64,000 nt of DNA from NCBI RefSeq assembly GCF_019469185.1, contig NZ_CP048264.1, positions 992,001 to 1,056,000 of the forward strand, given 5' to 3'. The notes below the pieces were generated by a model that saw nothing but the letters and a program-made list of their open reading frames with translations, searched no databases and had not been told where the DNA came from. The position numbers were made by a program, and so were the translations under genes. Every line of letters starts with the position of its first letter. The first letter of the stretch is position 1. The DNA is from Gilliamella sp. ESL0441. Its GTDB lineage: Bacteria; Pseudomonadota; Gammaproteobacteria; Enterobacterales; Orbaceae. Positions 37,785-61,840 of this stretch are shown one piece after another.

Positions 37785-37786
37785 TA

Positions 37787-37809: not shown

Positions 37810-38190
37810 TATGCTAGTTGTATGCTCTCAAAACAAACCCAGCAATAAATCTAAACAATATCATGTAGAATAATAGAATATTAAAATGAACTAGACTAAA
37901 CGATATTTTTCACTTAAATGATGTCAACAAATGAATTGGTATCAAACATGTACTGAAAAATATATAAGGTGCAAGAATATAAAAATGTGTAATGCACGCT
38001 AGTTTGTCATTAACCTTTAACCAATCGATTACAGACACATCATGATTCCCAATTGTTTGGTAGACAAAAAACTCACAAGAACGACTATCGTGCAAAATCC
38101 CTTATAAATCACATATAACATATTGATTAAATTATAAATTTAAGCTATTAATGCTCAATCCCCAGTTGCTTAAAAAAGAATTAAAAAAAT

Positions 38191-38245
38191 CGGTAGAATT
38201 TTTCACCTTCCTATTTTAATTATTAAACAATAAGTTATAATAAGT
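38191..38245 (+). promoter_or_regulatory. Leader of CRISPR array 1
   Basis: About 55 bases before the first repeat match, with few changes, the sequence before array 2 read on the other strand (60186-60240). Shared elements are CGGTAGAA, then CTATTTTAATTA and ACAAT.AGTTATAAT. In type I-E systems the leader lies on the side where new spacers enter and opposite the ATAAACCG end of the repeat, which fits. Confidence 0.7.
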
Positions 38246-38580
38246 ATGTTCCCTATATACATAGGGATAAACCGCGTGCTAAAAACGGGGAATCGGACGA
38301 TCTGAGTATGTTCCCTGTATACACAGGGATAAACCGACCCGTGTCTTGAGCGCAAAAAAAGTGCTTTAATGTTCCCTGTATACACAGGGATAAACCGATC
38401 GGTGAATGTATCAATGCATTTTCTATTATATGTTCCCTGTATACACAGGGATAAACCGCTGCTAAACTTGACCGTAGATTTTGCTACGGTGAGTTCCCTA
38501 TATACATAGGAATAAACTGGAATCGATATAAAACAATATATACGATATAATGTATTTCTTGTATACACAGGGATAAACAA
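38246..38580 (+). CRISPR. CRISPR array 1, type I-E-like repeats
   Basis: Six repeats start (at the G of GTTCCC) at 38248, 38310, 38371, 38432, 38493 and 38554, a 61-base period (62 once), so repeats are ~29 and spacers ~32 bases. The core stem is CCCTGT / ACAGGG, with the 3' handle ATAAACCG that is also found in E. coli type I-E repeats. Repeats 2-4 are identical; repeat 1 carries CCCTAT / ATAGGG instead, a compensated change. Repeats 5 and 6 are degenerate, marking the old (trailer) end. No cas gene is in the window, so any effector must lie elsewhere. Confidence 0.95.
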
Positions 38581-38637
38581 AAAACACATTAACATTATTT
38601 AAAGAAAGCGAAATTTATAATTCAGGAAAAGAATACA

Positions 38638-39279
38638 TTGAAGCTGCTTAAAAAACTTATAATTTGTATATCAGTATTTTTAATGATCGGATGCAATCAA
38701 GCCGAACAGCCACAAAGTTCTAAAATCATCAGTGGAAAACCTTTTGATATTAGACACCTCGATTTTTCCGTCCCTATCGATACCTTTTTGTCTGAGTTTA
38801 AGGGTAAATACTACAAAGAACCTTTAGGAAAAATGACATCTCCCGATGATGATGAGGTGATTGGTTATACTTATATTTTAGTTCGATTAGCTGATGAAAA
38901 TTTTTATTTCTACAAAGAAAACATTAAATTGGAAAGGATATTAATTATTACCGATTTAAACGGCACGATTTATTCTTATACGGGAGAAATAAAGTTACCT
39001 AAAAATGAGGTTAAACGTGCAATTGAAGATTTTCGACAAAAAAATAGCCAATATTTAGAGGATAACTTAAGAGGTGAGAAGTTAGATAAAGAGTTGGAGA
39101 AAAAATTTGATTCTTATTATTACTGCTATCACTTACCAGACCGATATTTAAGTACATATATTCAGATTAGCGGAACTGATTCAAATAAATTATTTGGCAT
39201 AATTGAGGGAGAAAATCCGATTGAGCCAAAAAATGAATCACTTAAAGAACTAACAAAAGCATATATGCGTAAAAATTAG
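38638..39279 (+). CDS. Lipoprotein in CRISPR-bounded cassette (copy 1)
   Basis: 213 residues. Signal LLKKLIICISVFL and lipobox MIGC (Cys19), then a soluble domain I do not recognise. The start is TTG with AGGAAAAG upstream; the ATG used or available in copy 2 is AAG here. The first ~85 residues are nearly identical to copy 2, then the two diverge (for example LPKNEVKRAIEDF against APTKWVKSAIEDF), and they converge again at NPIEPKNESLK. A conserved frame with a variable core would fit immunity or surface proteins under diversifying selection (inference). It lies between CRISPR repeats 38554 and 39400. Confidence 0.75.
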   Translation: MKLLKKLIICISVFLMIGCNQAEQPQSSKIISGKPFDIRHLDFSVPIDTFLSEFKGKYYKEPLGKMTSPDDDEVIGYTYILVRLADENFYFYKENIKLERILIITDLNGTIYSYTGEIKLPKNEVKRAIEDFRQKNSQYLEDNLRGEKLDKELEKKFDSYYYCYHLPDRYLSTYIQISGTDSNKLFGIIEGENPIEPKNESLKELTKAYMRKN

Positions 39280-39320
39280 TTTATAGTAAAACAGAGAAAA
39301 AAATTAGAAAGGTGAATACA

Positions 39321-39455
39321 TTGAAATTAATACCTAGAATCATTCTTATACTACCGCTTATATTTATGGCAAATTGTAATCAAGCTCAAATTACCACATG
39401 TTCCCTGTATACACAGGGAAACATCGTTAATAAAATCAATAAATTCTATAATTAA
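39321..39455 (+). pseudogene. Lipoprotein fragment cut by a CRISPR repeat (copy 1)
   Basis: A TTG start in the same context as the preceding gene (GAATACATTGAA) opens a reading frame with a signal peptide (MKLIPRIILILPLIF) and lipobox-like MANC. After about 26 codons it runs directly into CRISPR repeat sequence and stops after 44 codons. Only the signal peptide remains of what was probably a second, related lipoprotein. The mirrored copy at 58998-59108 is truncated at the same place. Confidence 0.6.
39400..39426 (+). repeat. Solitary CRISPR repeat (inner end, copy 1)
   Basis: A single repeat with an intact CCCTGT / ACAGGG stem but a changed 3' end (AAACATCG for ATAAACCG). No spacer-repeat unit follows. 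The long inverted repeat ends here. Confidence 0.85.
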
Positions 39456-39519
39456 CTATTTTGATGCAACAATAAAAGGTTATTTTTAGCTTGTAATCAC
39501 TCTTAATGATTAACCCTTT

Positions 39520-40569
39520 TTATTCTGCAAATTTATTTTTGTGATCGTAACGATCAAAGTGAACATCATCGCTAATCAAATATTGATAAATATCATCCAC
39601 AATTTCGATCCCATTTTTAATATAATCTGCTTCTCGTTTTTTTCCTCTTTCACCGGGGAAGAATACTTCACTATTGCCTTTTGCAGGTTTTACCTGTTTC
39701 AATTGATCTAACATCGCAGACATGCTTTTTTTGAATACTTCAAGCCCAACAAAGTATTCTGGGTTAATGACAATATGTAAATGCCCTAGATCACGTCCTT
39801 TGGATAAATCGGCATACATCGAAGACACGTTTTTACCAAATGGTACACCAAGCAAAATTCCAGATAACACATCAACCATCATCATTAATCCATATCCTTT
39901 TGCATCTGCAATAGGTAATAAAGCATTGACTTTATAAGGATCGGTAGTGGCTTCACCTTGCTCATCAACAGCCCAAGTAGGGGGGATAGCTGCACCTTTA
40001 GAGCGAGCATACAATACTTTACCCCAAGCTTGTACAGTCGTTGCCATATCAAATGATACGACTCTTTCATCAGCAGAAGGGGCGGCAAAGGCGATAGGAT
40101 TAGTGCCAAAAAATTCTTCGGCACCGCCAAAAGGTACTGCCATCGGATCAGATTGACACATTGAAATAGCAACAAGATTATGAGCGGCTGCCATTTCGGT
40201 AAAATAACATAATGAACCACTGTGTGACATGCGTCGAATACCGACAACGGCAACGCCATTTTTTTTGGCTAGTTCAATCGCTTTATCCATACCAATTTTT
40301 GCGCCAACCAAACCACATCCATTATCAAAATCGAGAATCGCACTAGCTGGCCCGGTTTCTTTATAGGTCATATTGGGGTTTGTGGTCATGCCACCTTTAG
40401 CTATCCGCTCAGAATAGTATTCAACTCTTACCGCTCCATGTGAGTGTATTCCCCTTGCATCAGCAAAGGCTAGTGCATCGGCAGCAATATCAGCATGTTC
40501 TTTGCTTAATCCTGCTTTATGTAGTTTTTTCGCAATTAAATTATGTAATGTTTTTCGGTCTACTCTCAT
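39520..40569 (-). CDS. allD: Ureidoglycolate dehydrogenase (NAD+)
   Basis: Oxidises (S)-ureidoglycolate to oxalurate in anaerobic allantoin breakdown. A malate/L-lactate dehydrogenase-type (Ldh_2) protein of 349 residues with ADARGIHSHGAVRVEYY, GIRRMSHSGSLCYF, SMCQSDPMAVPFGG, GLMMMVDVLSGILLG and EIVDDIYQYLIS, all as in E. coli AllD. It is last in the leftward operon allC-MFS-allE-allK-allD and ends 65 bases from the truncated lipoprotein in the inverted repeat. Confidence 0.96.
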   Translation of the reverse strand: MRVDRKTLHNLIAKKLHKAGLSKEHADIAADALAFADARGIHSHGAVRVEYYSERIAKGGMTTNPNMTYKETGPASAILDFDNGCGLVGAKIGMDKAIELAKKNGVAVVGIRRMSHSGSLCYFTEMAAAHNLVAISMCQSDPMAVPFGGAEEFFGTNPIAFAAPSADERVVSFDMATTVQAWGKVLYARSKGAAIPPTWAVDEQGEATTDPYKVNALLPIADAKGYGLMMMVDVLSGILLGVPFGKNVSSMYADLSKGRDLGHLHIVINPEYFVGLEVFKKSMSAMLDQLKQVKPAKGNSEVFFPGERGKKREADYIKNGIEIVDDIYQYLISDDVHFDRYDHKNKFAE

Positions 40570-40592
40570 GTTTGTACTCCTCTGAATGGATT

Positions 40593-41510
40593 CTATTTAT
40601 CCATGGAATGGTTTTTTATTACGGTTCCTTTTTGACCTTTTAATAAGGATTCAATATCTGTTAGGGTACCGATATAAGCTGTATTCCCTGTTTTTTCGAC
40701 AAATTCAATGACGGATTTGACTTTAGGTCCAATGGAACCATCATCGATAGCAAGCGGTTTTAGGCGTTCAGTATCAACATGATCAAGTGCTTTTTGTTGT
40801 GGTGTCCCCCAGTTTTCATAAACGGCATCAGCATCGGTTAATATCATTAGGTGATCAGCTTGTAGCTGTATGGCTAATTGCGCCGCAGACAGATCTTTAT
40901 CAATGACCGCTTCCACTCCTTGGTAGCCATGGTCAATGCTGATAACAGGAATACCACCACCTCCATTACAGATCACGATAGTATTGTCATTCAGCAATTT
41001 TTGAATGGTTGCAATTTCCAAAATTTTTTTGGGTTTAGGGGAGGGGACTACCCGCCGAATGTATTGACCGTCTTGTTTAAATATCCAACCATATTGTTGT
41101 TTGAGTTGATTTTGTTGTTCGGGTGGATAGACAGGCCCGATAAATTTTGTCGGGTGAGTAAACGAAGGATCACATTTATCAACTTCCACTTGCGTAAGTA
41201 ATGTGACCACCTGGGTAACATTAGGTTGTTGCTGTAAACTTTGACCTATCATATACCCTAGCATGCCTTGAGTTTGCGCAACTAATATATCAAGCGGATA
41301 AGCCGGTACCTTTGAATAAGCTGCATTTTGCAAGGCTAAAAGTCCCACTTGCGGACCATTACCATGTACAATGACTAATCGATATTTACCTGCTAATTTA
41401 GCAATTAATTTGGTTGTAGAATGAATATTTTGATATTGATTCTCAACCGATAAAGGTTCATTTCGTTTGGCAATTGCATTACCACCTAAAGCAATGACAA
41501 TCAGTTCCAT
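40593..41510 (-). CDS. allK: Carbamate kinase of the allantoin pathway
   Basis: Transfers phosphate from carbamoyl phosphate to ADP, giving ATP, ammonia and CO2. The 305-residue amino-acid-kinase fold has IALGGNAIAKRNEP, VIVHGNGPQVGLLALQNAAY, CNGGGGIPVI and the nucleotide site ILTDADAVYENWGTPQQKAL. Orthologous in position to ybcF (allK) of E. coli. It makes the pathway energy-yielding. It lies 23 bases upstream of allD in the leftward operon. Confidence 0.92.
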   Translation of the reverse strand: MELIVIALGGNAIAKRNEPLSVENQYQNIHSTTKLIAKLAGKYRLVIVHGNGPQVGLLALQNAAYSKVPAYPLDILVAQTQGMLGYMIGQSLQQQPNVTQVVTLLTQVEVDKCDPSFTHPTKFIGPVYPPEQQNQLKQQYGWIFKQDGQYIRRVVPSPKPKKILEIATIQKLLNDNTIVICNGGGGIPVISIDHGYQGVEAVIDKDLSAAQLAIQLQADHLMILTDADAVYENWGTPQQKALDHVDTERLKPLAIDDGSIGPKVKSVIEFVEKTGNTAYIGTLTDIESLLKGQKGTVIKNHSMDK

Positions 41511-41585
41511 ATGGTTTCCTTGATCATTTGTTAAAGTTATTGGATTTATCCGTTTTTAAGTTTACGTTGTCTTATTATTGATTGA

Positions 41586-42365
41586 TTAGATAGCAACGTC
41601 TCGATGACAATCTTTAGAATAGATATAACTTAAAGGCACTTTACCAACGGCATAACAGGCTTGTAAGGCATAGGCACCCATAAAAATATAGTCATCTTTT
41701 TTAACGGGGATCCATTCATTATCAAGTAGGTACATCCCTTCACCACTTAGCAGATAAGCACCATGTTCTTGGACATGGGTTTCAATGTAACCATGACTGG
41801 CGCCGGGATTGAAGGTTAAAATATGGAAATTCATATCAAATCCAAGTTCTTTAGGTAATAAGTCTTGGATAAATACGTTATCCATATTTTCATAATTTAA
41901 GCTTTCTAACTGCTGAACGTGATTGGAAATAATGCGAGTTTGATAATTTGCTAAGGGGATATAACGCCTTTTGTAAAGAAATAATCGTGAACTTTCGGCA
42001 TGATTGTGTAGATATAATTTTACCCCAGCAGGACAATATAAATAGCCACCTATCTTTAATCTAAACGATTGGCTATCTGCGGTGGCGGTAATATCTCCAC
42101 TAATGACATAAACAAAAAGTTCAATCCCTTCACTGCCAAAACCTTGTACATTTTTTGCGTCTTGATGCATGGTGACAAGATAATCTACGAAGGATGCACC
42201 TAACTTAGGTGTCGATAAGATAGTGATATCACAATTTTCGAATCCCGGAATGACATTTTTGACTAATCCATCAGGCGGAATAAGCGCATAATTTTGGCGT
42301 TTGATGATGGCTCTGGAAGCTAGCAAATCTTTTGGATAACCGGTATTGTGATTGAAGTACCCCAT
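41586..42365 (-). CDS. allE: (S)-ureidoglycine aminohydrolase
   Basis: Releases ammonia from (S)-ureidoglycine to give (S)-ureidoglycolate, holding the stereochemistry. A 259-residue bicupin with GYFNHNTGYPKDLLASRA at the N-terminus, a first cupin around LFVYVISGDITATADSQ, and the catalytic second cupin: FNPGASHGYIETHVQEHGAYLLSGEG with the Mn ligands, then YIFMGAYALQACYAVG. It follows E. coli AllE (YlbA) closely. Middle of the leftward operon. Confidence 0.95.
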   Translation of the reverse strand: MGYFNHNTGYPKDLLASRAIIKRQNYALIPPDGLVKNVIPGFENCDITILSTPKLGASFVDYLVTMHQDAKNVQGFGSEGIELFVYVISGDITATADSQSFRLKIGGYLYCPAGVKLYLHNHAESSRLFLYKRRYIPLANYQTRIISNHVQQLESLNYENMDNVFIQDLLPKELGFDMNFHILTFNPGASHGYIETHVQEHGAYLLSGEGMYLLDNEWIPVKKDDYIFMGAYALQACYAVGKVPLSYIYSKDCHRDVAI

Positions 42366-42507
42366 ATTTATCTCCTTGAAAAATAATAATCTTATACTTT
42401 GCTGTTCGTTTTTTTAGGGTAAAAGGCAACTAGCCTGTAAAACAGCATCGTTTTAAAGCAATATTGTTATTGCCGACTACCGTATTGGATCGGCAATGAT
42501 TGATTTG

Positions 42508-43755
42508 TTAATTGGTGATATGTTTACGCATGTTGATCAGGAAAAAGAGCAAGGTAGCGATAATTAAAATGCCAATTGCCACGTAAAATCCTGTCATTTT
42601 TGTTCCGGTCAGATCAGCTAAATACCCGGTTAATGGCGGTGCAATTACCGATGAACTCATACCAAAAAAGTTAAATACTCCAAACGAAGTGCCATAATTT
42701 GTTTTCGGTGCTGTATCAGCCACGTGTGAGATGAGGATAGGCTCTACCGCCAATTTACCAAACAGTCCATAAAAAATGAGCCCACCTAGCAATAACGTGA
42801 TGGTTGTTGCTTGTACGGTCGTTAACAGGGTCGCTGCTGCAATTAACTCAAGTACAATAATGAAAAACAGCCGTTTATTTTGGTATTTATCTGATATTTT
42901 ACTGATGATTAACGCCCCGGGTATGGCAGCAAAGGCAACCAATGACGATGCAGATCCAATGTTTCCACCCGTAAAGCCGCGCTCGGTTTCGAGAAAGTTA
43001 GGTAACCAACTAACTATCATGTAATACCCATAGCAGGTGGCAAAATACATAATATAAGAAGCCACCATTTGACTACTAAAAAATCGGTGTTTGGCGTTCG
43101 GTTCGTCAGCGGATGTAACCGCTTCTTTTGCTGACGATGATTGACTTTGATTTTGTTTTTGTTTTGGCGTTTCCTTAATAATCAGGGCAAACCCTGCCAC
43201 TAAACAAAGTAATAAGGCTGCAATGATATATAGCATATACTCCCAAGGCATTCCCCATGATTTGACCAAAAAGCTGGTGGCAAGCAGACTGATCCCCATT
43301 CCTAATGCTGAACCAGTATTAATAATGGCAGAAGCAAAACCGCGATGTTGCGAAGGAATGTTTTCAGCAGAAAGCGACCAAGCTGATCCATAATAAGAGC
43401 CACATCCTAATCCAGCCAATAAGCTACCGACATAAATCATCATAATTGAATGTGCATTACCAATGATTAATGCCGCTATGGTAAAGAGTAAAAATCCCGG
43501 AATCACCACGGCTTTTTTACCGAATCGATCGACAAGAATGCCAGCCGGAATTTGCATTGCGGTGTAAGCAAAAAAATAGCAACTTGCAATAAGTCCAAGT
43601 TCCGTATTGGATTGAGGGCCTATAGTTTGTTGAACTTCAGGAAAGATAGCGGTTAGCACAGGGCGATAGATCCACATCACTGTCCAACCCAGACATAATA
43701 ATACGACGATTTTATGCCAATATTGAATACCGCCTGTTTTTTCTGTCGTGGTCAT
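42508..43755 (-). CDS. MFS transporter in allantoate operon
   Basis: 415 residues with twelve hydrophobic segments. The superfamily loop is AGILVDRFGKKAVV, and a charged Gln/Ser-rich loop (QKQNQSQSSSAKEA) separates the halves. Its place between allC (11 bases away) and allE makes uptake of allantoate or a related ureide the simplest role; this is inference. The usual enteric allantoin permease (YbbW, NCS1 family) is a different kind of protein and is not here. Confidence 0.82.
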   Translation of the reverse strand: MTTTEKTGGIQYWHKIVVLLCLGWTVMWIYRPVLTAIFPEVQQTIGPQSNTELGLIASCYFFAYTAMQIPAGILVDRFGKKAVVIPGFLLFTIAALIIGNAHSIMMIYVGSLLAGLGCGSYYGSAWSLSAENIPSQHRGFASAIINTGSALGMGISLLATSFLVKSWGMPWEYMLYIIAALLLCLVAGFALIIKETPKQKQNQSQSSSAKEAVTSADEPNAKHRFFSSQMVASYIMYFATCYGYYMIVSWLPNFLETERGFTGGNIGSASSLVAFAAIPGALIISKISDKYQNKRLFFIIVLELIAAATLLTTVQATTITLLLGGLIFYGLFGKLAVEPILISHVADTAPKTNYGTSFGVFNFFGMSSSVIAPPLTGYLADLTGTKMTGFYVAIGILIIATLLFFLINMRKHITN

Positions 43756-43766
43756 ATTGATTCCTC

Positions 43767-44993
43767 TTACTCTTGATAAGCTAGTTTATATAGGGCATAA
43801 GTGAGCGCTTTAATGCCTTCAACTAAATCTTCGGTTTTGGTATCTTCGGCAATATTGTGACTAATGCCTTTTATACTCGGCACAAATAGCATTGCTGTTG
43901 GAACACGAGGCGCGAAAATCTGTGAGTCATGACCTGCACCGCTATGCATTACCCGATAACTTAATCCTTCTTGATCACAAATTTCTTCTAGCAGATGAAT
44001 TAATTTAGTGTCCATAGGAATGGGATCTTCATCCATCCAGCGATTGATTTCGATCTCAAGATTAAGTTGATTGGCGATGCGAATCATATCCGCTTCAATC
44101 TCTTCGGTGAAGGCGACGAGTTCCGCTTTATTGGTATGTCGACAATCCATCGTGAATAGCACTTCACCCGGCACGACGTTTACAACATTCGGTTTAGGTT
44201 CAACGTGCCCAAAAGTCAGGACTAAGGGATCACCCACTTTTATGGCTTTATTAATTGATTGATAACAGATTTGACTAAAGGCATAAACTGCGTCTTTACG
44301 ATAACCCATTGGTGTTGTGCCGGCATGGTTAGCTTCGCCAATTAAGCGGATGTTATAACGGCGCTGACCAACTATGCTTGTCACCACACCGATACTTTTT
44401 TGTTCTTTTTCAAGCACGCCCCCTTGTTCGATATGAATTTCTAGAAAAGCTTTAATGTCGTTGCGTGCAGGCTGAGTTTTGAAATTAAATCCACATCCTT
44501 TCATGGCATCAACAAATTTGATTCCGTCACTATCTTCAATCTCATTAACATCACGATGATCGGCAATGGCAAACACATTTTTACTTCCCCAAAAAACATA
44601 CGGAAAACGGCTACCTTCTTCTTCTGCCATTGAGATGAGTTCTAGTGTTCGTAACGGTTGACCATAATGTTGATGTAAGTATTGCATGGCAAGTAACGCA
44701 GCAATAATACCAAGTTGCCCGTCAAGTTTGCCACCGTTAACAACGGTATCAACATGCGACCCAGACATAATGACTTCATTCGGATATTTGCTACCTTTGA
44801 ATCGTCCATAAAGATTGCCTATTTCATCAAAGTCGCTTTCCATACCGATTTGCGTCATTCTGTCTTTTAAGGCATTTTGGGCGGCCAGCCATTCTGGTGT
44901 ATATAGCAGTCGGGTGGTACCGCCTTGTTCAAGCCCCCCAAAACTCGATATCCATTTAACTGCATTAGCCACATCATCATACAAGATATTCAT
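43767..44993 (-). CDS. allC: Allantoate amidohydrolase
   Basis: Cleaves allantoate to (S)-ureidoglycine, ammonia and CO2. A 408-residue M20-family metallo-amidohydrolase: MSGSHVDTVVNGGKLDGQLG and ISMAEEEGSRF carry the binuclear Mn ligands, EIHIEQGGVLE the specificity loop, and SGAGHDSQIFAPRVPT the last His. First gene of the leftward operon, divergent from fdrA with a 532-base gap. With no allB in the window it is the first pathway step encoded here. Confidence 0.95.
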   Translation of the reverse strand: MNILYDDVANAVKWISSFGGLEQGGTTRLLYTPEWLAAQNALKDRMTQIGMESDFDEIGNLYGRFKGSKYPNEVIMSGSHVDTVVNGGKLDGQLGIIAALLAMQYLHQHYGQPLRTLELISMAEEEGSRFPYVFWGSKNVFAIADHRDVNEIEDSDGIKFVDAMKGCGFNFKTQPARNDIKAFLEIHIEQGGVLEKEQKSIGVVTSIVGQRRYNIRLIGEANHAGTTPMGYRKDAVYAFSQICYQSINKAIKVGDPLVLTFGHVEPKPNVVNVVPGEVLFTMDCRHTNKAELVAFTEEIEADMIRIANQLNLEIEINRWMDEDPIPMDTKLIHLLEEICDQEGLSYRVMHSGAGHDSQIFAPRVPTAMLFVPSIKGISHNIAEDTKTEDLVEGIKALTYALYKLAYQE

Positions 44994-45525
44994 AAGCGTT
45001 TACCTATCATTAACCATTCGTTTAGAAAAATTGCTTTAACTCTTTTTAACTACTCGTTTTTAATTAGGCTTTTAGTTATGGAACAAATTCGATAATTGTT
45101 TATTTGCCGTTTAGACTATCTATTAATAGCAGAGAATAATGTGATCAAACTAACTATTTTAGATTTATAAAATTTAATTAAATTAATGGGTTATTATTAT
45201 AAAAAATTTTTTAATAATAATTTATCTTCATGATTATATTCATATTTATTTAATGATATAGATGATTGTTTTGTGACTTATGACCTATTTATTCCGCTTT
45301 TTTTACGTAATATATAAATATAGTCTGATAGTTAGATTTAATAGGTTAACGCAATATTGTTGTTGTAAAACAGATTCAAAGCGGATAGCAGGGTATGACT
45401 GAGTAGGATAATTTATCGCGTCAATGAAAATGTCTTTTAACATCTAGCAAGCGCATATCTATTTATTTCCAATTACCATTACAGCATTTATTACAATAAT
45501 TTAATAACTGAGAGGTCCAATTCTC
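44994..45525. promoter_or_regulatory. Divergent control region of the two allantoate operons
   Basis: 532 bases between allC and fdrA, very AT-rich. It must hold both promoters and probably the AllS binding site, since allS lies in the right operon. A near-palindrome of TTATTATTA and TAATAATAA at 45191-45220 is the most obvious symmetry, but in such AT-rich DNA it may be chance. GAGAGG precedes fdrA. Confidence 0.5.
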
Positions 45526-47193
45526 ATGATTCAATCTTTCATAAAAAAAGGTAGTTTTCAGGATTCTGTTAGCCTCATGTTGATATCTAAAAAGCTGAGT
45601 AACCTTGAAGAAGTCGATGAAGTTTCCGTTATGATGGGAACACCAGCCAATAAATCATTGCTTGTCGCCACGGGATTTTGGAGTGATACTTTCAATCAAG
45701 CAACGCCTAATGATATCTGTGTAGCAATTAAAACGCATGATGATGCTAGCGATGCCATAGATTTAATTCGTTCACAACTTGAAGAGGCTTTAAAAAATAT
45801 TGCTCAGCAACAGCAGGGGGGCAGTAAATTACTTAAAGCAAGGCGTTTTGCAACCGCTAATCGAAAACTCCCTGATGCTAATTTGGTGCTTATTTCAATT
45901 GCCGGTGAATATGCGGCAGAATTGGCAGAACAAGCGTTAGATGAAAATAAAAATGTCATGATATTTTCCGATAATGTGTCGCTTGAAGATGAAATCCGTT
46001 TGAAAAAAAGCGCAGCAGCAAAAGATCTTATTGTCATGGGGCCGGATTGTGGAACGGCAATCATCGCTGGGGCGCCATTGGCATTTTCTAACGTGATACC
46101 TAAGGGTAACATTGGGGTGATTGGGGCATCGGGAACCGGTATTCAAGAAGTGATTTCACAAATTGCATTACTCAATCAGGGAATTACACAAGCAATTGGA
46201 CTTGGCGGACGTGATTTATCGCAAGCAGTAGGGGGGATTAGCGCATTAACCGCATTAACTATGCTGGCGGCTGATAAGCAAACGCAAGTCATTACTTTTA
46301 TTTCTAAACCGCCAGCTGAAAGTGTCCGTATAAAAGTGATTAATGCAATGAAGCAAATAGCTAAACCTATTGTGGCGCTCTTTTTAGGTTCCCGTATTGA
46401 TAAACGGCAAGACGATAATATCTTTTTTGCCAGCACGTTAGATGAAGCAGCTAGATTAGCTTGTTTATTAGCCAAAGTTGAAAGTGCGATGAGCACGTTG
46501 CCTAGTGTGGCTCATCAAACCATTATGGGATTATATACCGGTGGTACATTAGCATCGGAAGCCGCAATGTTGCTGGCTAATCAACTCAATCTTTTGCTCA
46601 GTGATAATCACGACAAAGGCATCATGTTCGATCAGCAAGGTCATAAAATTATTGATCTGGGCGATGACTTTTATACCGTTGGGCGCCCACATCCCATGAT
46701 TGACCCATCCATACGTGAACATGCAATAGCACAATTGGGCGAGCAAACAGGGGTGGGGGTATTGTTACTGGATCTGGTCATAGGCTATGGCGCAAATGCG
46801 AATCCGGCTGAATCAATAATCACAGGTTACAACAAGGCTATCGCTAAACGATCTTCTCATCATCCCTTAATTGCTATTGCCACGGTGACAGGATCTGAAT
46901 CCGATCCACAATGTCGTAGTAAGCAAATTGCAGCACTTCAATCGGCAGGTATTACCGTAATGGATAATTTACCCGAAGCCATTTTATTAGCCACAAAATT
47001 AATTACGCCAGCAAATAAGATTGATTGCTTAAAACCTTACCCTTTACTTGATCATATCAGTGTGATTAATGCCGGTTTGCGGAGTTTTGCTGAAGATCTG
47101 CAATCATCAAATATTCCTGTGGTGCATTATCAATGGGCACCGATAGCTGGTGGCAATCAAAAATTAGCGGCTATTTTGAAAAAATTAAACTAA
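45526..47193 (+). CDS. fdrA: FdrA (AllF), oxamate carbamoyltransferase subunit
   Basis: 555 residues, related to the alpha subunit of succinyl-CoA synthetase. MMGTPANKSLL near the N-terminus, VMGPDCGTAIIAG, NIGVIGASGTGIQEVISQIALLNQGITQAIGLGGRDLS and LYTGGTLASEAA are FdrA hallmarks. With AllG and AllH it forms the oxamate carbamoyltransferase that phosphorolyses oxalurate to oxamate and carbamoyl phosphate, as described for the E. coli FdrA-YlbE-YlbF set. First gene of the rightward operon, 12 bases before allG. Confidence 0.93.
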   Translation: MIQSFIKKGSFQDSVSLMLISKKLSNLEEVDEVSVMMGTPANKSLLVATGFWSDTFNQATPNDICVAIKTHDDASDAIDLIRSQLEEALKNIAQQQQGGSKLLKARRFATANRKLPDANLVLISIAGEYAAELAEQALDENKNVMIFSDNVSLEDEIRLKKSAAAKDLIVMGPDCGTAIIAGAPLAFSNVIPKGNIGVIGASGTGIQEVISQIALLNQGITQAIGLGGRDLSQAVGGISALTALTMLAADKQTQVITFISKPPAESVRIKVINAMKQIAKPIVALFLGSRIDKRQDDNIFFASTLDEAARLACLLAKVESAMSTLPSVAHQTIMGLYTGGTLASEAAMLLANQLNLLLSDNHDKGIMFDQQGHKIIDLGDDFYTVGRPHPMIDPSIREHAIAQLGEQTGVGVLLLDLVIGYGANANPAESIITGYNKAIAKRSSHHPLIAIATVTGSESDPQCRSKQIAALQSAGITVMDNLPEAILLATKLITPANKIDCLKPYPLLDHISVINAGLRSFAEDLQSSNIPVVHYQWAPIAGGNQKLAAILKKLN

Positions 47194-47205
47194 GAGGTTG
47201 TAACA

Positions 47206-48462: not shown

Positions 48463-48465
48463 TTT

Positions 48466-49422: not shown

Positions 49423-49425
49423 AGT

Positions 49426-50349: not shown

Positions 50350-50414
50350 TCCAATTCGTTCTTAAAGTAGACATTGTTAATTAACAAATTTGATATTAAT
50401 AAAGGAAAAATAAT

Positions 50415-51650: not shown

Positions 51651-51669
51651 TATATCGTCATCGTTATAA

Positions 51670-51687
51670 AGCTCACTAAGGTGAGCT
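51670..51687 (+). terminator. Stem-loop after pucG
   Basis: A 7-bp stem (AGCTCAC / GTGAGCT, loop TAAG) 20 bases past the pucG stop. No T-tract, so at most a weak or partial terminator before the MFS gene. Confidence 0.45.
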
Positions 51688-51860
51688 GATCTTATGACTA
51701 TTAAAAGTATTAGATACACCATTTATATCGAAAAGTAAGTTAGTTGTTATTGGTTGCAATAAAAGCAGATTATCAAATTAGCGTCTAAAAGCGTTGTGAT
51801 TCGTTGCTCATTGATTTGAGTGATGGAGGACAATAGCCTAATTATACTTAAGGAAATGCT

Positions 51861-53153: not shown

Positions 53154-53477
53154 AAAAGTAGAGCAATGCGCTGCTTTTTGTTATTGCTATTCAATTAATT
53201 AATATGGTTGCCATAAGGTTTGATTAAACAAGTGGAATAAAAATAGTCAGAATAACTAAGAAGAAATCTATAAGATTAACCTAATCGGAAAAGTAAAATT
53301 ATTTTATTTTCTCTAAAAATCATCGTATTGTAAAAGAGATAAAAGTATCTGCGAGATTTATTGATTACTATTTGATTCAAAAATAAGTCAGGTTAAAGTC
53401 ACGCATTAATTAGTTAACCAATGAAAATAGGATAATTATAAAAGGAATGTTAGCGATATTTTTGAACGTGAATAAAA

Positions 53478-53501
53478 AAACCGTTCCAAAGAGAACGGTT
53501 T
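53478..53501. terminator. Bidirectional terminator, fabB / MFS
   Basis: AAACCGTTC / GAACGGTTT stem with a 6-base loop, T-rich on both strands (TTTTT on plus, TTTTTTTATT on minus). It lies between the convergent MFS gene and fabB, just after the fabB stop. The other ~320 bases between these genes hold nothing I can recognise. Confidence 0.88.
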
Positions 53502-53522
53502 TTATTTAACTAAAACACCAGA

Positions 53523-54734
53523 CTAAGCTTTATATTTTTTCATGACAATTGAAGCGTTAGTCCCACCAAATCCAAAGCTATTCGACATGACTGTCGTTAA
53601 TTCACGCTCGGTTGGTTCAGTGATGATGTTCATGCCAATAGCGGCTTCATCCAGTTCATCAATGTTAATACTTGGCGTAATAAAGCCATGTTCTAACATT
53701 AATAATGAATAAATTAATTCTTGTGCACCTGTCGCACTTAACGAGTGACCAGTCATTGATTTAGTGGATGAAATCGCCGGGATATTATCACCAAATACTT
53801 GCTTGATAGCCCATAGCTCTTTAACGTCACCAACAGGTGTTGATGTACCGTGTGTATTAATATAATCCACAGGCACATCTAAATCTTGGATCGCAAGTTG
53901 CATACAACGCATTGCACCTTCACCAGATGGGGCTACCATGTCATAACCGTCAGATGTAGCAGCATAACCAACCAGTTCACCGTAGATATGGGCACCACGA
54001 GCAAGCGCATGCTCTAACTCTTCAACTACAACCATACCAGCACCGCCGGCTATAACAAATCCATCACGGTTGGCATCATAGGCACGAGATGCTTTTTCAG
54101 GTGTATCATTGTATTTAGTTGATAACGCACCCATTGCATCAAATTCACATGACATTTCCCAACAAAGTTCTTCACCACCACCGGCAAAAACGATATCTTG
54201 CTTACCGAGTTGAATCAGCTCAGCAGCATGACCAATACAGTGTACAGACGTTGCACAAGCTGACGTCATCGAATAGCTAATCCCTTTGATTTTAAAAGGT
54301 GTTGCTAAACAAGCTGAAATTGCTGATGACATTGATTTTGTCACCGCATAAGGCCCCACGCCACGTAACCCCTTTTCTTTCATACCTGCAACGACATTAT
54401 ATTGAGTTTTGGTTGAACCACCATAGCCAGCAATTAAACCAGTTCGAGGATTTGAGACTTGTTCAGGAGTCAATTTTGCATCATCAATAGCTTGTTGAAG
54501 AGCAAGATAACCATAGATAGAAGCATCATTCATAAAGCGCACGATTTTGCGATCGATAAGCCCTGTAGTATCTAATTTAACATTACCGCAAACATGGCTT
54601 CGCATTCCGCTATCTTTCATTTCTTGAGAAAAAGTGATTCCGCTACGTCCAACTTTTAACGATTCTAAAACCTCTTTAGTATTGTTTCCAATACTCGAAA
54701 GAATACCTAATCCGGTAATAACAACTCGTTTCAT
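53523..54734 (-). CDS. fabB: 3-oxoacyl-ACP synthase I
   Basis: Elongates acyl-ACP and is required for unsaturated fatty acid synthesis. The Cys-His-His triad is complete: [24 protein letters not shown] and [16 protein letters not shown]. The start [18 protein letters not shown] and the ending [18 protein letters not shown] agree with E. coli FabB in detail, rather than FabF. 403 residues. Promoter and FabR operator are recognisable upstream; a bidirectional terminator follows. Confidence 0.97.
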
Positions 54735-54783
54735 TTAATATTCTGCTCCTAAATTATCTGGCTTCATAAGAAAAATTGATGTG

Positions 54784-54812
54784 ATTATAGCGTACACTTG
54801 TAAGCTGAACAA
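54784..54812 (-). promoter_or_regulatory. fabB promoter with FabR operator
   Basis: On the minus strand, TTGTTC (54807-54812) and TATAAT (54784-54789) are spaced by exactly 17 bases. The spacer is filled by an 18-base near-palindrome at 54789-54806, plus strand AGCGTACACTTGTAAGCT, one base off the symmetric FabR consensus AGCGTACA-N2-TGTACGCT. FabR binding there would block RNA polymerase, as known for fabB in E. coli. The -10 is about 50 bases before the fabB start. Confidence 0.85.
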
Positions 54813-55036
54813 TACCTTACGTATCTATTTTATTTGTTTTAGTGAATTTATTTATTTCAATAAATAAAAAAAATCTAGCAATTATACTTTCGGTTAGATC
54901 CATTATTACCCATTCACAGCTTAAGATTAAAGGCTTTTTCGATACTAAAATTACACTTTTCTGATTGTTTATTTACTTGCTAATTAAAAAGTGATTAGTA
55001 TAATACTGTTCGTTTATACAGTATTAGGGGTTGGCT

Positions 55037-56302
55037 ATGAATGAAAAGATGATATCAAAGCTTGAAATATTAGCTGAATCAGCAAAGTATGATATTTCTT
55101 GTGCTTCCAGTGGCTCATCTCGAACTAATAAAAATAAAGGGATTGGTAGTGCTCATCGCTGTGGAATATGTCATTCATTCACTGCTGATGGCCGTTGTGT
55201 CTCCTTGCTAAAAATCATGTTAACCAACTATTGCATGTTTGATTGTGCTTATTGTATAAATCGCCAAAGTAATGATATTCCTCGAGCAGGATTTACGCCC
55301 AAAGAATTAGCCGATTTAACCATTGAATTTTATCGTCGCAACTATATTGAAGGACTTTTCTTAAGTTCTGGCATCGTCAGAAGCCCTGATCACACGATGG
55401 AAAAAATGATTAGAGTCGTAAAAATATTGCGTAATGAACATGGATTCAATGGCTACATCCATATGAAAGCGATTCCTGGTGCCAGTAATGATCTTATTGT
55501 TCAGGCTGGTTTGTTGGTTGATCGAATGAGTGTTAACTTAGAAATCCCAACAGAAAAAAATCTAAAGTTATTAGCGCCCGATAAAGATCATCAAAGTATT
55601 TATCAGCCAATGCGACATATTCATCAAAACTTACTTGAAAATATTGAAGATCGAAAAAAAATTAAGTCTACGCCAAAATTTGTCCCAGCAGGGCAGAGCA
55701 CTCAAGTCATTATCGGGGCAACAGATGAGACAGACAGCCAGATTTTACAACTAACGGCTAAACTTTATAAACGACCAAGTATGAAGCGAGTTTATTATTC
55801 AGGTTTTATTCCTGTTAATGGTTATGATAAAAGATTACCCGTATTGCAAGAAGTACCAAGAGTGCGAGAAAATCGCCTTTATCAAGCTGATTGGTTATTG
55901 CGGTTCTACGATTTTAGTGTCGATGAAATTGTCAATGATCAATATCCTGATCTTGATTTAACTGTTGATCCTAAACTGGCTTGGGCTATTCGAAATCCCC
56001 AATTCTTTCCAGTCGATATAAACCGTGATAGTTATCAAAAAATTTTACGAGTACCCGGTATTGGTGTTAAATCGGCAAAATTAATTGTTTTAGCAAGGCG
56101 ACACCGTAAACTAAATTTAGAAGCGCTTAAACGTATTGGCGTTGTACTAAAAAGAGCCCAATTTTTTATTATTTGCCATGAAATGCGAAAATTTAAATTG
56201 CTAGATTCATCCGAAGAGTATATTCGGCTTTCCTTGCAAGAAAAACCGTTGCTTGAAGTCAAAAACGATCATATTCCTCAGCAATTAGTGATGGGTTGGT
56301 AA
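55037..56302 (+). CDS. Radical SAM protein, putative DNA modification/repair (TIGR03916 type)
   Basis: About 421 residues. The radical SAM cluster is CMFDCAYCI near residue 70, preceded by a cysteine-containing RCGICHSFTADGRC. A helix-hairpin-helix near the C-terminus (ILRVPGIGVKSAKLIVLARR) suggests nucleic-acid binding. This domain order fits the uncharacterised radical SAM family annotated as putative DNA modification/repair. The start is the ATG at 55037, with AGGGG 6 bases upstream. It is 3 bases from the next gene; the pair is conserved in many bacteria. Confidence 0.88.
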   Translation: MNEKMISKLEILAESAKYDISCASSGSSRTNKNKGIGSAHRCGICHSFTADGRCVSLLKIMLTNYCMFDCAYCINRQSNDIPRAGFTPKELADLTIEFYRRNYIEGLFLSSGIVRSPDHTMEKMIRVVKILRNEHGFNGYIHMKAIPGASNDLIVQAGLLVDRMSVNLEIPTEKNLKLLAPDKDHQSIYQPMRHIHQNLLENIEDRKKIKSTPKFVPAGQSTQVIIGATDETDSQILQLTAKLYKRPSMKRVYYSGFIPVNGYDKRLPVLQEVPRVRENRLYQADWLLRFYDFSVDEIVNDQYPDLDLTVDPKLAWAIRNPQFFPVDINRDSYQKILRVPGIGVKSAKLIVLARRHRKLNLEALKRIGVVLKRAQFFIICHEMRKFKLLDSSEEYIRLSLQEKPLLEVKNDHIPQQLVMGW

Positions 56303-56305
56303 ATC

Positions 56306-57109
56306 ATGTTAGCTTTTCAATATGATAAGAGTTTTGAAGGATTGCTATGCGCAGTGTTTGATGCGTTTGAGCAAAAAAAGATGCCCGATTGTTTGTTGGC
56401 GCATAATGAGCTTGTGCCTTTGTTAGTATCCGATACGCATCATGTGGAACTGCGTAACAGTAAATATGAACGGGTACAAGCAGCCTTGAACAAAAAGTTA
56501 TCTCACGTTGCGCTTAATCAATTAAAGTATGTTTGGCTTTCTGAATTACCAGAAAGTGATTTTGTTATTTTTCGTTATATCTGTAAAGTTTTCAAATCAA
56601 AGCATGCTATTGAAACCGATTTTGGTGATCCTGATGTACTAACCGTTCATGACATAGCTAAAAAAGTGAGTCGGGAACGGCATCATTTAATGCAATTTGT
56701 TCGCTTCAATACAATTGAAAACCCAATTGATAATCTCAATGAGAGACAAAGTGAAAAGATCTATTTTTCGGTTATTGCTCCTATCTATAACGCCTTGCCT
56801 TTAGTCTTAAATTTTTTTAAAGATCGTTATGCCGATCAGAAATGGGCGATTTACGATGAAAAACGTAAATATGGTTACTTTTATGATCTCGACAAACTTG
56901 AAAAAATTTCTTTGGTTGATCATGATGAGTTGATCGTAGATAGTCAAGTGAATCAACAGTATCTCACCAAAGATGAAAAACTGTTTCAAACCCTATGGCA
57001 TCGTTACTTTAATGCGTTATCTATTAAAGAAAGAGAAAATCCTAAATTACAACGTCAACAAATGCCAAAACGATTTTGGCACAATTTACCTGAAATGAAG
57101 GGCAAATAA
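56306..57109 (+). CDS. TIGR03915/DUF4130 family protein, partner of the radical SAM protein
   Basis: 267 residues. It starts LAFQYDKSFEGLLCAVFDAFEQKK, has HDIAKKVSRERHHLMQFVRF in the middle, and AIYDEKRKYGYFYDLDKLEKI and ERENPKLQRQQMPKRFWHNLPEM near the end, the usual marks of TIGR03915 (DUF4130). Function unknown; annotated elsewhere as putative DNA metabolism protein because of its fixed pairing with the radical SAM family. The 3-base gap to the preceding gene shows coupling. Confidence 0.88.
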   Translation: MLAFQYDKSFEGLLCAVFDAFEQKKMPDCLLAHNELVPLLVSDTHHVELRNSKYERVQAALNKKLSHVALNQLKYVWLSELPESDFVIFRYICKVFKSKHAIETDFGDPDVLTVHDIAKKVSRERHHLMQFVRFNTIENPIDNLNERQSEKIYFSVIAPIYNALPLVLNFFKDRYADQKWAIYDEKRKYGYFYDLDKLEKISLVDHDELIVDSQVNQQYLTKDEKLFQTLWHRYFNALSIKERENPKLQRQQMPKRFWHNLPEMKGK

Positions 57110-57110
57110 A

Positions 57111-57136
57111 AAACCGCTATTTAAACAGCGGTTTTG
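57111..57136. terminator. Terminator between TIGR03915 gene and mlaA
   Basis: AAACCGCT / AGCGGTTT stem with an 8-base loop, followed by TTGTATTT on plus and preceded by an A-rich run (T-rich on minus). It can serve the convergent mlaA as well. Confidence 0.8.
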
Positions 57137-57161
57137 TATTTATATATTATGATGAAACAAG

Positions 57162-57920
57162 TTATTGTGAATCGATATCATTAATAAAGCTATCGATACT
57201 TTCTTCACGTTTTTGTTGTTTCTTTTGGTCGACCTTTCCACCTGAAGCATTAAAATCATTACGTTGGAAGTAAGCATTACGCATAAAGTTATAAGGATCA
57301 TCACTATTTTTTATCAGATCTTCATATTCAATAGCCGCAGCACGAGCCTCAATACCATCAAATACTCCTCGTGCTAATGCCCATTGCCAATCTAACCATG
57401 CTAAAGGTGGATAAAGCGTATCGACTAAGTCGCCACCTTCTTGTCTAAGTGTCGCAGAGCCATAGAAAGGTAGAACTACATATGGGCCATAAGGTACTTC
57501 GTAGTGACCAAGTACATCACCAAAAGAGCGTTTATTCCCTTTTTGTAATTGAGGATCGGCTAAACTTGCCACATCAAATAAGCCCGCAAAACCAAAAACA
57601 GTGTTTAAAAAGAATCTTGCTAAATGTTTACCTGCTTGTTGAACCTCACCTTGTAGAAGGTTATTTACCATTGAAGCTGGTTCAGAAAGATTCGAAGAAA
57701 AGTTTACAAATCCTTTACGAATTGGCGAAGGAACATGATCTTTCCAAACGACAGCAGCCGGACGCAAAATATAAGGATCTAATGCATAGTAGTTGACGTT
57801 AAACATTGCTTTATTAAATCCAGATAGCGGATCACTGTATGAATTGCTTTCAGGATCATATGATGCGCAACTTGTAAGCGTCATAACAGAGAAGAGCATA
57901 GCAATTATTTTTTTCTTCAT
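57162..57920 (-). CDS. mlaA: Phospholipid-binding lipoprotein MlaA
   Basis: Removes phospholipids from the outer leaflet of the outer membrane in the Mla pathway, as a ring-shaped lipoprotein bound to porins. Signal with lipobox LTSC (Cys18), then DPLSGFNKAMFNVNYYALDPYILRP, RKGFVNFSSNLSEPASMVNNLLQGE, RFFLNTVFGFAGLFDVAS and FGDVLGHYEVPYGPYVVLPFYG, the family signatures in order. 252 residues, with a charged C-terminal tail. Other mla genes are not in the window. Confidence 0.96.
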   Translation of the reverse strand: MKKKIIAMLFSVMTLTSCASYDPESNSYSDPLSGFNKAMFNVNYYALDPYILRPAAVVWKDHVPSPIRKGFVNFSSNLSEPASMVNNLLQGEVQQAGKHLARFFLNTVFGFAGLFDVASLADPQLQKGNKRSFGDVLGHYEVPYGPYVVLPFYGSATLRQEGGDLVDTLYPPLAWLDWQWALARGVFDGIEARAAAIEYEDLIKNSDDPYNFMRNAYFQRNDFNASGGKVDQKKQQKREESIDSFINDIDSQ

Positions 57921-58048
57921 AGGATTTTCAACTAAAAATAATTCAGGTTATTGATTTCGTTATTGTATCATGTTTACACATAATACAAAATTTTTCGTTA
58001 TTTAAATGGCATTATTTTTTTAAATTTATTAAAATAAACGCCCTTTAT

Positions 58049-58120
58049 GACCTCATAGTTAAATGGATATAACGAGCCCCTCCTAAGGGCTAGTTGCAGG
58101 TTCGATTCCTGCTGGGGTCG
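58049..58120 (+). tRNA. argW: tRNA-Arg (anticodon CCU)
   Basis: A complete cloverleaf: acceptor GACCTCA pairs with TGGGGTC (one T-G), anticodon stem AGCCC / GGGCT with loop CTCCTAA giving anticodon CCT, and T-arm GCAGG-TTCGATT-CCTGC. Reads AGG. The D- and anticodon arms follow E. coli argW almost base for base. After the discriminator G comes AATAT, so CCA is not encoded. In enterics argW is a common integration site for prophages. Confidence 0.95.
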
Positions 58121-58997
58121 AATATATTTCTAAAACTTTCATTCAATAATAGCAATTAAAAAAACCATATAATCAATAAGTTAATGACTTGTCATACTCT
58201 ATCTTGAATCGTTTATCATTAATTTGTTGGGTGTACTTTATTAAATTTTTGTTACCTCTACAACTATAATTATCATGTTAAAATTTTAAAATCTATAATA
58301 ATTTGCTCATATTGCATCAATTTAACGTGTATGAAAAAAGAAGATTATTGTCAGTTTCTTGATATTATGAAGATTTTATTGAATGATTGCGCTATTGAAT
58401 AAGCTTTATTGAGCGATACGCTGGTTTAGAAAAAATTTTCTTATGAGTGGATTGGAAAAAAGATTATTTTACTAATCATTTTTATACACTGTCTTGACCA
58501 ACCTCAGGATGCTTTTTCGTCTTTTTTAGCTTGTATTAGGCTCTGTTTAAGTAAGTCATCTTCTTATCGGACAATTAGTTTTATACGATCGATCCGAACT
58601 ATTTTTATCTTGTATGGGGGGATCTTTAGTGGATTATATTTCTGACATGAACCCATTTAAAAATAGGTACTATAAAGTCTAATGCTTTAAAGTGAAGCAA
58701 CACTAGCAACATCTTTTATCATAATCATTAAATGGTTTATTGTTATGATTTTAATGTCAGGGGACATAATATTATTGAACATTTATTTCACTGCTATGAA
58801 TAAGGTAATATTTAGGTAATTTAAGATTTGCACACTAACGTTATTTAATTTTAATTTAATAGGATTGATTACTAACTTTCTTAATAATCCTAATAATACT
58901 TTCTGTGAGAATAGATAATCAGAAAAGAAACATATCTAATATAAAAATTAACTTTACAAACTATCTAGTTTTTTAAATTAGAGTAAAGTTTAAAAAT
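58121..58997. other. Gene-free stretch between tRNA-Arg and the inverted repeat
   Basis: About 880 bases without a gene. Some segments between 58480 and 58700 look like decayed sequence (short broken frames on the minus strand), perhaps from a mobile element, but I cannot name one. No second copy of the tRNA 3' end is visible in the window. Confidence 0.4.
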
Positions 58998-59108
58998 CTA
59001 GCAATTTATCCCTATGTATATAGGGAACACTGTGGTAATTTGAGCTTGATTACAATTTGCCATAAATATAAGCGGTAGTATAAAGATGATTCTAGGTATT
59101 AATTTCAA
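58998..59108 (-). pseudogene. Lipoprotein fragment cut by a CRISPR repeat (copy 2)
   Basis: The mirror of the fragment at 39321. A TTG start at 59108, signal peptide MKLIPRIIFILPLIF, lipobox-like MANC and QAQITT, then the frame enters the CRISPR repeat and ends after 36 codons. Both copies lose the gene at the same point, so the truncation predates the duplication, or both were cut at the repeat. Confidence 0.6.
59002..59028 (-). repeat. Solitary CRISPR repeat (inner end, copy 2)
   Basis: Read on the minus strand it has the CCCTAT / ATAGGG stem and ends ATAAATTG. It stands alone and marks the inner end of the right inverted-repeat arm. Confidence 0.85.
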
Positions 59109-59149
59109 TGTATTCACCTTTCTAATTTTTTTCTCTGTTTTACTATAAA

Positions 59150-59794
59150 CTAATTTTTACGCATATATGCTCCTGTTTGAGCTTTAAGTGATTCATTTTT
59201 TGGTTCAATTGGATTTTCTCCCCTAATCCAGCCAACCATAGTATCTCGGTCATCGAAATCGTTAATTTGAATGCTCGTACTTAAGTATCGATCGGGTAAG
59301 TGATAGCAGTAATAGTGTAAATCAAATTTTTCTCGATACTCTCTTTCCATTTTCTCGCTCATTAAATTATCTTCTAAATATTGGCTGTTTTTTTCGTGAA
59401 AATCTTCTATTGCACTTTTAACCCATTTCGTAGGTGCCTTTATTTCTCCTGTATAAGAATAGATAGTACCGTTCAAATCAGTGATGATTATTATCCTATC
59501 TAATTTGACATTTTTTTTGTAGAAATAATAATCTTCATCAGCTAATCGAACTAAAATATAAGTATAACCAATCATCTCATCATCATCAGGTGATGTCATT
59601 TTTCCTAAAGGTTCTTTGTAGTATTTACCCTTAAACTCAGACAAAAGAGTATCGATAGGGACGGAAAAATCGAGGTGTCTAATATCAAAAGGTTTTCCAC
59701 TGATGATTTTAGAACTTTGTGGCTGTTCGGCTTGATTGCATCCGATCATTAAAAATACTGATATACAAATTATAAGTTTTTTAAGCAGCTTCAA
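59150..59794 (-). CDS. Lipoprotein in CRISPR-bounded cassette (copy 2)
   Basis: About 214 residues from the TTG at 59794, which has the same AGGAAAAG site as copy 1. An in-frame ATG at 59830 would add 12 residues (MKAKFIIQEKNT) but has no ribosome binding site and is absent from copy 1. Signal with lipobox MIGC; the N-terminal ~85 mature residues are almost identical to copy 1, the region around WVKSAIEDFHEKN and INDFDDRDTMVGWIRG is different. Unrecognised family, probably surface or periplasmic. It lies between CRISPR repeats at 59852 and 59002. Confidence 0.75.
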   Translation of the reverse strand: MKLLKKLIICISVFLMIGCNQAEQPQSSKIISGKPFDIRHLDFSVPIDTLLSEFKGKYYKEPLGKMTSPDDDEMIGYTYILVRLADEDYYFYKKNVKLDRIIIITDLNGTIYSYTGEIKAPTKWVKSAIEDFHEKNSQYLEDNLMSEKMEREYREKFDLHYYCYHLPDRYLSTSIQINDFDDRDTMVGWIRGENPIEPKNESLKAQTGAYMRKN

Positions 59795-59851
59795 TGTATT
59801 CTTTTCCTGAATTATAAATTTCGCTTTCATTAAATAATGTTAATGTGTTTT

Positions 59852-60185
59852 TTGTTTATCCCTGTGTATACAAGAAATACATTATATCGTATATATTGTT
59901 TTATATCGATTCCAGTTTATCCCTATGTATATAGGGAACACACCAAGAGAAGACATCATCGAAGCCGCATAGCCGGTTTATCCCTATGTATATAGGGAAC
60001 ACAGAGAGATTATAAAATTTATTATAAAATAAAACGGTTTATCCCTATGTATATAGGGAACACAATGTCGAGCTAATAACATCAATCAAAAATGACGGTT
60101 TATCCCTATGTATATAGGGAACACAGGGAATGCTAGTCGTACATTTTGGAGTTTTACGGTTTATCCCTATGTATATAGGGAACAC
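59852..60185 (-). CRISPR. CRISPR array 2, type I-E-like repeats
   Basis: On the minus strand six repeats (plus-strand left edges 59852, 59913, 59974, 60035, 60096, 60157) with an exact 61-base period. The four leader-side repeats are uniform: stem CCCTAT / ATAGGG, 3' handle ATAAACCG. The two trailer-side repeats are degenerate and, with the spacer between them, match the last two of array 1. The other four spacers differ from those of array 1. Leader on the high-coordinate side. No cas gene nearby. Confidence 0.95.
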
Positions 60186-60240
60186 TCTAATTATAACTCA
60201 TTGTTTATTAATTAAAATAGGGAAGATAAAATTTCTACCG
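60186..60240 (-). promoter_or_regulatory. Leader of CRISPR array 2
   Basis: Read on the minus strand these ~55 bases match the leader of array 1 (38191-38245) with few differences, beginning CGGTAGAA. Similarity fades further upstream. Confidence 0.7.
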
Positions 60241-61819: not shown

Positions 61820-61840
61820 AGGAAGGAAAACTTGAGATTG

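Follow-up and report, generated by a model that had tools for sequence, protein, structure and literature searches.

We analysed a 64,000-nucleotide (nt) stretch of the Gilliamella sp. ESL0441 chromosome (the window; the genome is G000 in our comparison, in which G and L numbers label genomes and loci) that contains two arrays of clustered regularly interspaced short palindromic repeats (CRISPR) in opposite orientation. Each array carries, between its repeats, a piece of about 820 nt from a protein-coding cassette found elsewhere in the same genome. The two arrays probably belong to type I-E loci that have long been separate, with a block of array content copied between them via the repeats. 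If this is true, CRISPR arrays carry and exchange whole protein genes besides spacers, so that genes, and not phage memories alone, may be stored and swapped in them. The G000 genome is a single contig of 2.75 Mb, and the named records most closely related to it in the genome collection were of Gilliamella.

Two type I-E arrays with a block in common

Both arrays have 28/29-nt repeats and a period of about 61 nt, as in type I-E systems, and Cas8e, Cas11e, Cas7e, Cas5e, Cas6e and Cas1e were found in G000 (L019:2492-8113). Cas8e and Cas11e lie in one open frame of 731 amino acids (aa), an apparent fusion (L019:2492-4687; G000:C1:383492-385687). The left array (38247-39426, plus strand) has repeats starting at 38247, 38309, 38370, 38431, 38492 and 38553 and a solitary repeat at 39399; those of the right array (59002-60184, minus strand) start at 60157, 60096, 60035, 59974, 59913 and 59852, with a solitary repeat at 59002. 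Each array runs from an outer leader through four private spacers to a degenerate repeat, a shared spacer, a second degenerate repeat, about 820 nt of other DNA and the solitary repeat. A first-pass annotation of the window had described oppositely oriented arrays with four different spacers each and a common last spacer, and the repeat positions and spacer comparison bear this out: spacer 5 (33 nt) is identical between the arrays and is the only one in common. It had also described the same two degenerate terminal repeats in both arrays; the last is indeed identical, but the penultimate one has 2 base differences. Repeats of this kind number 61 copies in G000 at no more than 3 mismatches, with several further loci besides the window pair, and 140 kb of Markov-simulated sequence gave no match at up to 8 mismatches.

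The inverted homology between the two sites is far above chance, with 90% identity over one arm of 685 nt, 93% over another of 205 nt, and a single BLAST alignment of 1,336 columns at 84.6%. It is not confined to the repeats: it runs about 820 nt past the presumed trailer and ends at the solitary repeat on both sides, and no homology outside the solitary repeats appeared in the BLAST alignment of the two sites. The earlier proposal of an inverted copy of trailer plus flank holds in that array content is shared in opposite orientation, but the shared block lies inside the arrays and not in the flank.

The leaders tell a different story from the block. Inverted homology between them is present, as first annotated, but they are only 72% identical over 130 nt, and the leader query found matches in 23 of the genus's 35 genomes (and in 0 of 9 from four further genera of the family). 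Leader homology is therefore no mark of a pair. In a related genome, G008, the left leader has 86% identity with a leader at a different locus and 73% with the leader of the array at the left site itself, and the leader and terminal ends of arrays therefore seem to have separate histories. These values, set against 97-100% identity at the block ends, do not fit the idea that the leader sides simply diverged after a recent duplication. A simple recent duplication including the leaders was likewise rejected on leader identity.

To look for spacer targets, 22-nt pieces of six of the nine distinct spacers were scanned against viral contigs. The second spacer from the leader in the right array matched at 32/32 positions in 2 viral contigs and at 31/32 in 2, with AAG at all of them; four of the other five scanned spacers had no match in viral contigs, and one, the first of the right array, had an IMG/VR match that was discarded because it reached only 25/32. 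No phage match was obtained for the left spacers, and the 13 phage rows returned for the right spacers were no better than chance (E about 3). The perfect, AAG-flanked protospacer suggests that the right array records phages in the usual way. In its 61-nt period, 28-nt repeat, Cas set and AAG-flanked protospacer the system resembles other type I-E systems, from which it differs in the gene-carrying inserts between repeats, mostly on the array's strand.

The insert, its cassette source and the two sites

The relative G008 has an ordinary 20-repeat array (L046) at the left site, and from the left solitary repeat on, the window has 97% identity with the terminal repeat of that array and the 3 kb after it. 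The left solitary repeat is thus the native end of the array, its terminal repeat, which places the gene inside the array. Before the terminal repeat at this site, G008 has ordinary spacers and G000 has the window lipoprotein gene directly adjacent; G001 and G013 have a 164/168-aa lipoprotein one spacer before it, with no significant similarity to the window lipoprotein. There is a second contrast of this kind between the two genomes: L020 of G000 has, between its leader and its terminal repeat, a single repeat and 423 nt that contain an 80-aa open reading frame (ORF), and L045 of G008 has 16 repeats.

Two larger copies of the insert are present in G000 as putative effector-immunity cassettes (L024 and L023), both with the gene order 154-aa ORF, 864-aa ORF, lipoprotein gene and second lipoprotein gene. 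The window pieces comprise the final few codons of the 864-aa ORF, the lipoprotein gene in full and the start of the second lipoprotein gene; homology to the cassettes sets in immediately past the degenerate repeat and breaks off about 8 nt short of the next repeat. Each trapped gene has a low ratio of nonsynonymous to synonymous polymorphism (pN/pS) against its cassette allele (0.17, left against L023; 0.12, right against L024). In 60-column tiles of the block, the first six match at 58-60/60 between left and right and the last three at 60/60, 58/60 and 11/12, whereas the six middle tiles match at only 33-53/60; overall the copies differ by about 12%. The left middle is nearest the L023 cassette and the right middle nearest the L024 cassette, and both window copies have sites in common that differ from both cassettes. 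This pattern would fit one origin, copying between the arrays and then allele exchange with the two cassettes, in that order. Two repeat types are mixed in the left array, while the right array is nearly uniform, which is a mere hint as to the direction of copying.

The 154-aa ORF of L023, the copy that was scanned, is a DUF4280 protein, and the 864-aa ORF of L024 gave no domain above the cut-off. The two 864-aa ORFs (L024:3870-6464 and L023:4165-6759) differ at 12 positions, five of them within 700-716. There were 28 relatives of this ORF, and the three with an organism name are from Apibacter (best 66% identity), a bee-gut member of another phylum, Bacteroidota; transfer across phyla in the bee gut is possible. 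The window lipoprotein had no Pfam match. A large protein search returned two clusters of relatives, 99% and 84% identical, and a scan of the genome-contig collection returned none; among the 34 other genomes there was one fragment, in G008, and G000 itself has a further fragment at C1:1108317. The left insert had no plasmid match. A promoter and terminator scan of 38100-39500 was uninformative, with 5 promoter-like sites against 8.6 expected and 0 terminators. A short way past one cassette, five diverged, nearly palindromic repeats follow a leader (L023:9823-10103).

The right array lies beyond tRNA-Arg, and alignments to G008, G001, G013, G025, G009, G029 and G011 end there, at window 58119-58129; G008 has an integrase where its alignment ends. 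The left array, Ldh_2 and mlaA have the same order and orientation in G008, in which about 19 kb separate the array from mlaA, and we therefore rejected an inversion of the approximately 20-kb interval (the alignment to G008 covers window 39399-46417 and 55927-58125, not the middle). Inversions in Thermotogales are reportedly linked to CRISPR sequences, going by the title of work by DeBoy from 2006; arrays would be tied to chromosome rearrangement in both cases, but no interval inversion was seen between G000 and G008. There was also no sign that the arrays form mirrored borders of a segment, as first suggested, since the left array-mlaA order is kept in G008 and the right array lies past the tRNA gene. 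Leaders at 72% identity and a right array within a tRNA-Arg island instead suggest two old loci that exchanged array content at their repeats. As to the same layout in other strains, repeats occur at only 2 of 30 mlaA loci (G000 and G011, about 1.5 kb on each side), with the arrays of these two genomes oppositely oriented; what does recur, in 10 genomes, is gene-sized gaps.

Past tRNA-Arg, window 58122-64000 and L143:1-1869 contain orphan ORFs of 271, 232, 298, 261 and 274 aa, several of which, by eye, are of families found around the 864-aa ORF. On the other side of the window, the G008 flank matching 24372-27062 sits about 0.7 kb from the left-site array, and the 11 kb or so at 27062-38114 have no counterpart at that place in G008.

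Table 1. Positions in the window of the two arrays, their leaders and inserts, and the adjacent tRNA gene
Feature	Position	Strand	Basis
Left CRISPR leader	38114..38246	+	start of inverted homology to right leader
Left array: 4 repeats and 4 private spacers	38247..38491	+	repeat positions
Shared block part 1, left: degenerate repeat, shared spacer (38520-38552), degenerate repeat	38492..38580	+	58/60 and 59/60 to right copy in the first two 60-column tiles
818-nt gene-carrying insert, left	38581..39398	+	homologous to cassettes from G000:C1:124870 and G000:C1:2274165 onwards
213-aa lipoprotein-like ORF, left allele	38638..39279	+	like L023 cassette; pN/pS 0.17
Left terminal repeat	39399..39426	+	orthologous to terminal repeat of ordinary G008 array (L046)
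tRNA-Arg(CCT)	58048..58121	+	alignments to seven related genomes stop at 58119-58129; start of variable region with right array
Putative right terminal repeat	59002..59029	-	repeat match; no ordinary array at this site found in a relative
822-nt gene-carrying insert, right copy	59030..59851	-	homology to left insert and cassettes
226-aa lipoprotein-like ORF, right allele	59150..59830	-	99% to L024 cassette; pN/pS 0.12
Shared block part 1, right: two degenerate repeats and shared spacer	59852..59940	-	identity to left copy
Right array: 4 repeats and 4 private spacers	59941..60184	-	repeat positions; second spacer from leader has protospacer
Right CRISPR leader	60185..60317	-	inverted homology to left leader

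Gene-sized gaps in arrays of the genus

We took loci from the listed leader matches in 20 genomes (several listed arrays and the matching genomes G003, G028 and G032 were left out), scanned 59 loci, two without repeats, and collected gaps of 100-5,000 nt between same-strand repeats; a later 150-nt minimum removed none. This gave 51 gaps, 23 leading into a leader and 28 not (in-array). The in-array gaps occur in 10 genomes, and 25 of the 28 contain an ORF of at least 60 aa, as do 8 of the 23 leader-leading gaps. Inserts between repeats span about 0.3-5 kb; among their products are PAAR proteins accompanied by small membrane proteins, one Rhs protein, one DUF7079 protein and a helix-turn-helix antitoxin-like protein; a crude pattern found a lipobox in 6 of 37 gap ORF families.

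These genes lie mostly on the strand of their array. Of the ORFs of 90 aa or longer in all 51 gaps together, 60 share the array's direction and 2 oppose it (by family 35 and 2, P=1e-8); counted by gap, 28 are entirely co-oriented, none entirely opposed and 2 mixed (15, 0 and 2 with strict repeats). As a control we took the nearest gene past the last repeat, which shares the array's direction in 25 of 54 cases and opposes it in 29; the in-gap bias stands out clearly from this control (P=1e-5 by gap; 0.0023 for strict gaps). All P values are guides, because ORFs within a gap and gaps of related genomes are not independent.

Spacers were shared between arrays of one genome in two exact cases (the window pair and L047/L048) and one near-identical pair. 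At L034:4623-13288 in G001, two similar units of PAAR protein plus small membrane proteins take turns with three arrays, and a solitary repeat precedes each array by about 262 nt. A secreted-looking family of 230-234 aa lies beside or between arrays in five genomes (window 37080-37784; L036, L048, L051 and L075), with Pfam tRNA_anti-like found in the two members scanned.

Competing explanations and a putative immunity role

In the exchange that we favour, the many arrays with near-identical repeats in one genome would offer sites for recombination, and repeat-flanked pieces could then move between arrays or be brought in by foreign DNA. The block of two degenerate repeats, shared spacer and gene piece would have been copied by recombination, each of its two junctions falling within or next to a CRISPR repeat, and the two copies would later have diverged by allele, the left like one chromosomal cassette and the right like the other. 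Co-orientation would be expected if genes readable from the leader are kept. It is improbable that an inverted duplication of the trailer and flank of one array took place instead and that separate spacer acquisition then drove the leader sides apart. Long inverted homology and a common last spacer would result from such an event, but on each side the homology goes no further than the terminal repeat, G008 shows that the left terminal repeat and flank belong to their site, the leaders are far less alike than the block ends, and the right array lies past the tRNA gene where synteny ends. The chance that the second copy arose in assembly is negligible, given a single contig, copies about 12% apart and private spacers, and nothing was found in its favour.

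It may be that Cas1-Cas2 inserted the long fragment in the manner of a spacer, duplicating a repeat. The piece does lie between repeats, and in both donor cassettes the homology is immediately preceded by AAG, the motif before the one perfect protospacer found. Adaptation in type I-E systems is set to about 33 nt, however, and a piece of this length conflicts with that. In addition, there is only one independent junction, AAG is not rare by chance where DNA is rich in A and a run of A makes the exact start uncertain, the last base of the repeat preceding the piece is A rather than G, and 8-9 nt at the far end are left unexplained; we regard such a capture as unlikely. We would also be surprised if CRISPR loci and accessory cassettes had merely settled in the same variable regions, with decayed arrays leaving stray repeats. 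The position of the right array beyond a tRNA gene and the alternation of PAAR units with arrays at L034 would be expected in that case, as would the upstream strand bias given below, but the in-gap bias exceeds the upstream bias, the terminal repeat positions are orthologous to those of ordinary arrays, and different lipoproteins occur at one site.

Several observations weigh against the exchange that we favour, or narrow its reach. The first gene upstream of the first repeat also leans to the array strand (38 of 51, with 13 against), and the in-gap bias is weaker against this control than against genes past the last repeat (P=0.0006 by ORF; by gap 0.04, or 0.32 in strict gaps); the strand bias is thus only partly special to gaps, and part of it may be regional. 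The leader-score split of the gaps is rough, with two like units of L034 falling in different classes, 8 of the 28 in-array gaps fail the strict repeat criterion, L040 resembles a prophage segment by eye, and the loci come from listed matches rather than every array. The L020 insert had no donor in 35 genomes, and the homologs of a further insert, at L022 (L087, L088 and L089), share little beyond the gene and have no breakpoints at repeats, so that repeat-edged capture rests on the window pair. An in-array position is confirmed by a relative at the left site, and no ordinary right-site array was found in a relative. Low pN/pS could be inherited from the cassettes, and that the trapped genes are expressed and protect against a toxin is predicted from sequence.

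The trapped genes are putative immunity genes that would shield the cell from the toxins of rivals. This is suggested by the lipoprotein form, by the presence in further gaps of PAAR, Rhs and antitoxin-like genes, and by the cassette position behind the 864-aa ORF. The 864-aa ORF is itself preceded by the 154-aa ORF in both cassettes, and VipB/TssC is encoded in the genome. More tentatively, the arrays could act as cassette platforms in which intact immunity genes are read from the leader, cut free by Cas6e at the repeats and swapped among arrays and strains by repeat recombination, combining defence against phages and rivals in one locus. In integron gene-cassette arrays, too, exchangeable genes of one orientation follow a single leader region, with repeated sites between them. 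The likeness is one of outline, and in Gilliamella the spacing elements would be CRISPR repeats. The genus offers a natural set of arrays for asking how long pieces enter and whether array transcripts and Cas6e processing yield mRNA.

In the literature we found no combination of orphan immunity genes with CRISPR arrays, with subscription journals mostly uncovered. For recombination between CRISPR arrays with rearrangement there was only an essay that is general by its abstract, and among the matches listed, no title or opening of an abstract was noticed on genes between CRISPR repeats or on Gilliamella CRISPR. As described in the main text of two studies, bee-gut Gilliamella keeps immunity-type genes without their toxin (Steele 2017, PMC5727410; Steele 2021, PMC8125069), and the word CRISPR is absent from that text in both. 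If our reading is true, the arrays are a storage place of some of these orphan genes and a possible route of their spread. The Rhs and PAAR proteins in the Gilliamella gaps recall the Rhs and type VI secretion system genes described there (PMC5727410, PMC8125069). The C-terminal displacement arrays of these main texts form behind rhs genes, whereas the Gilliamella genes reported here lie between CRISPR repeats.

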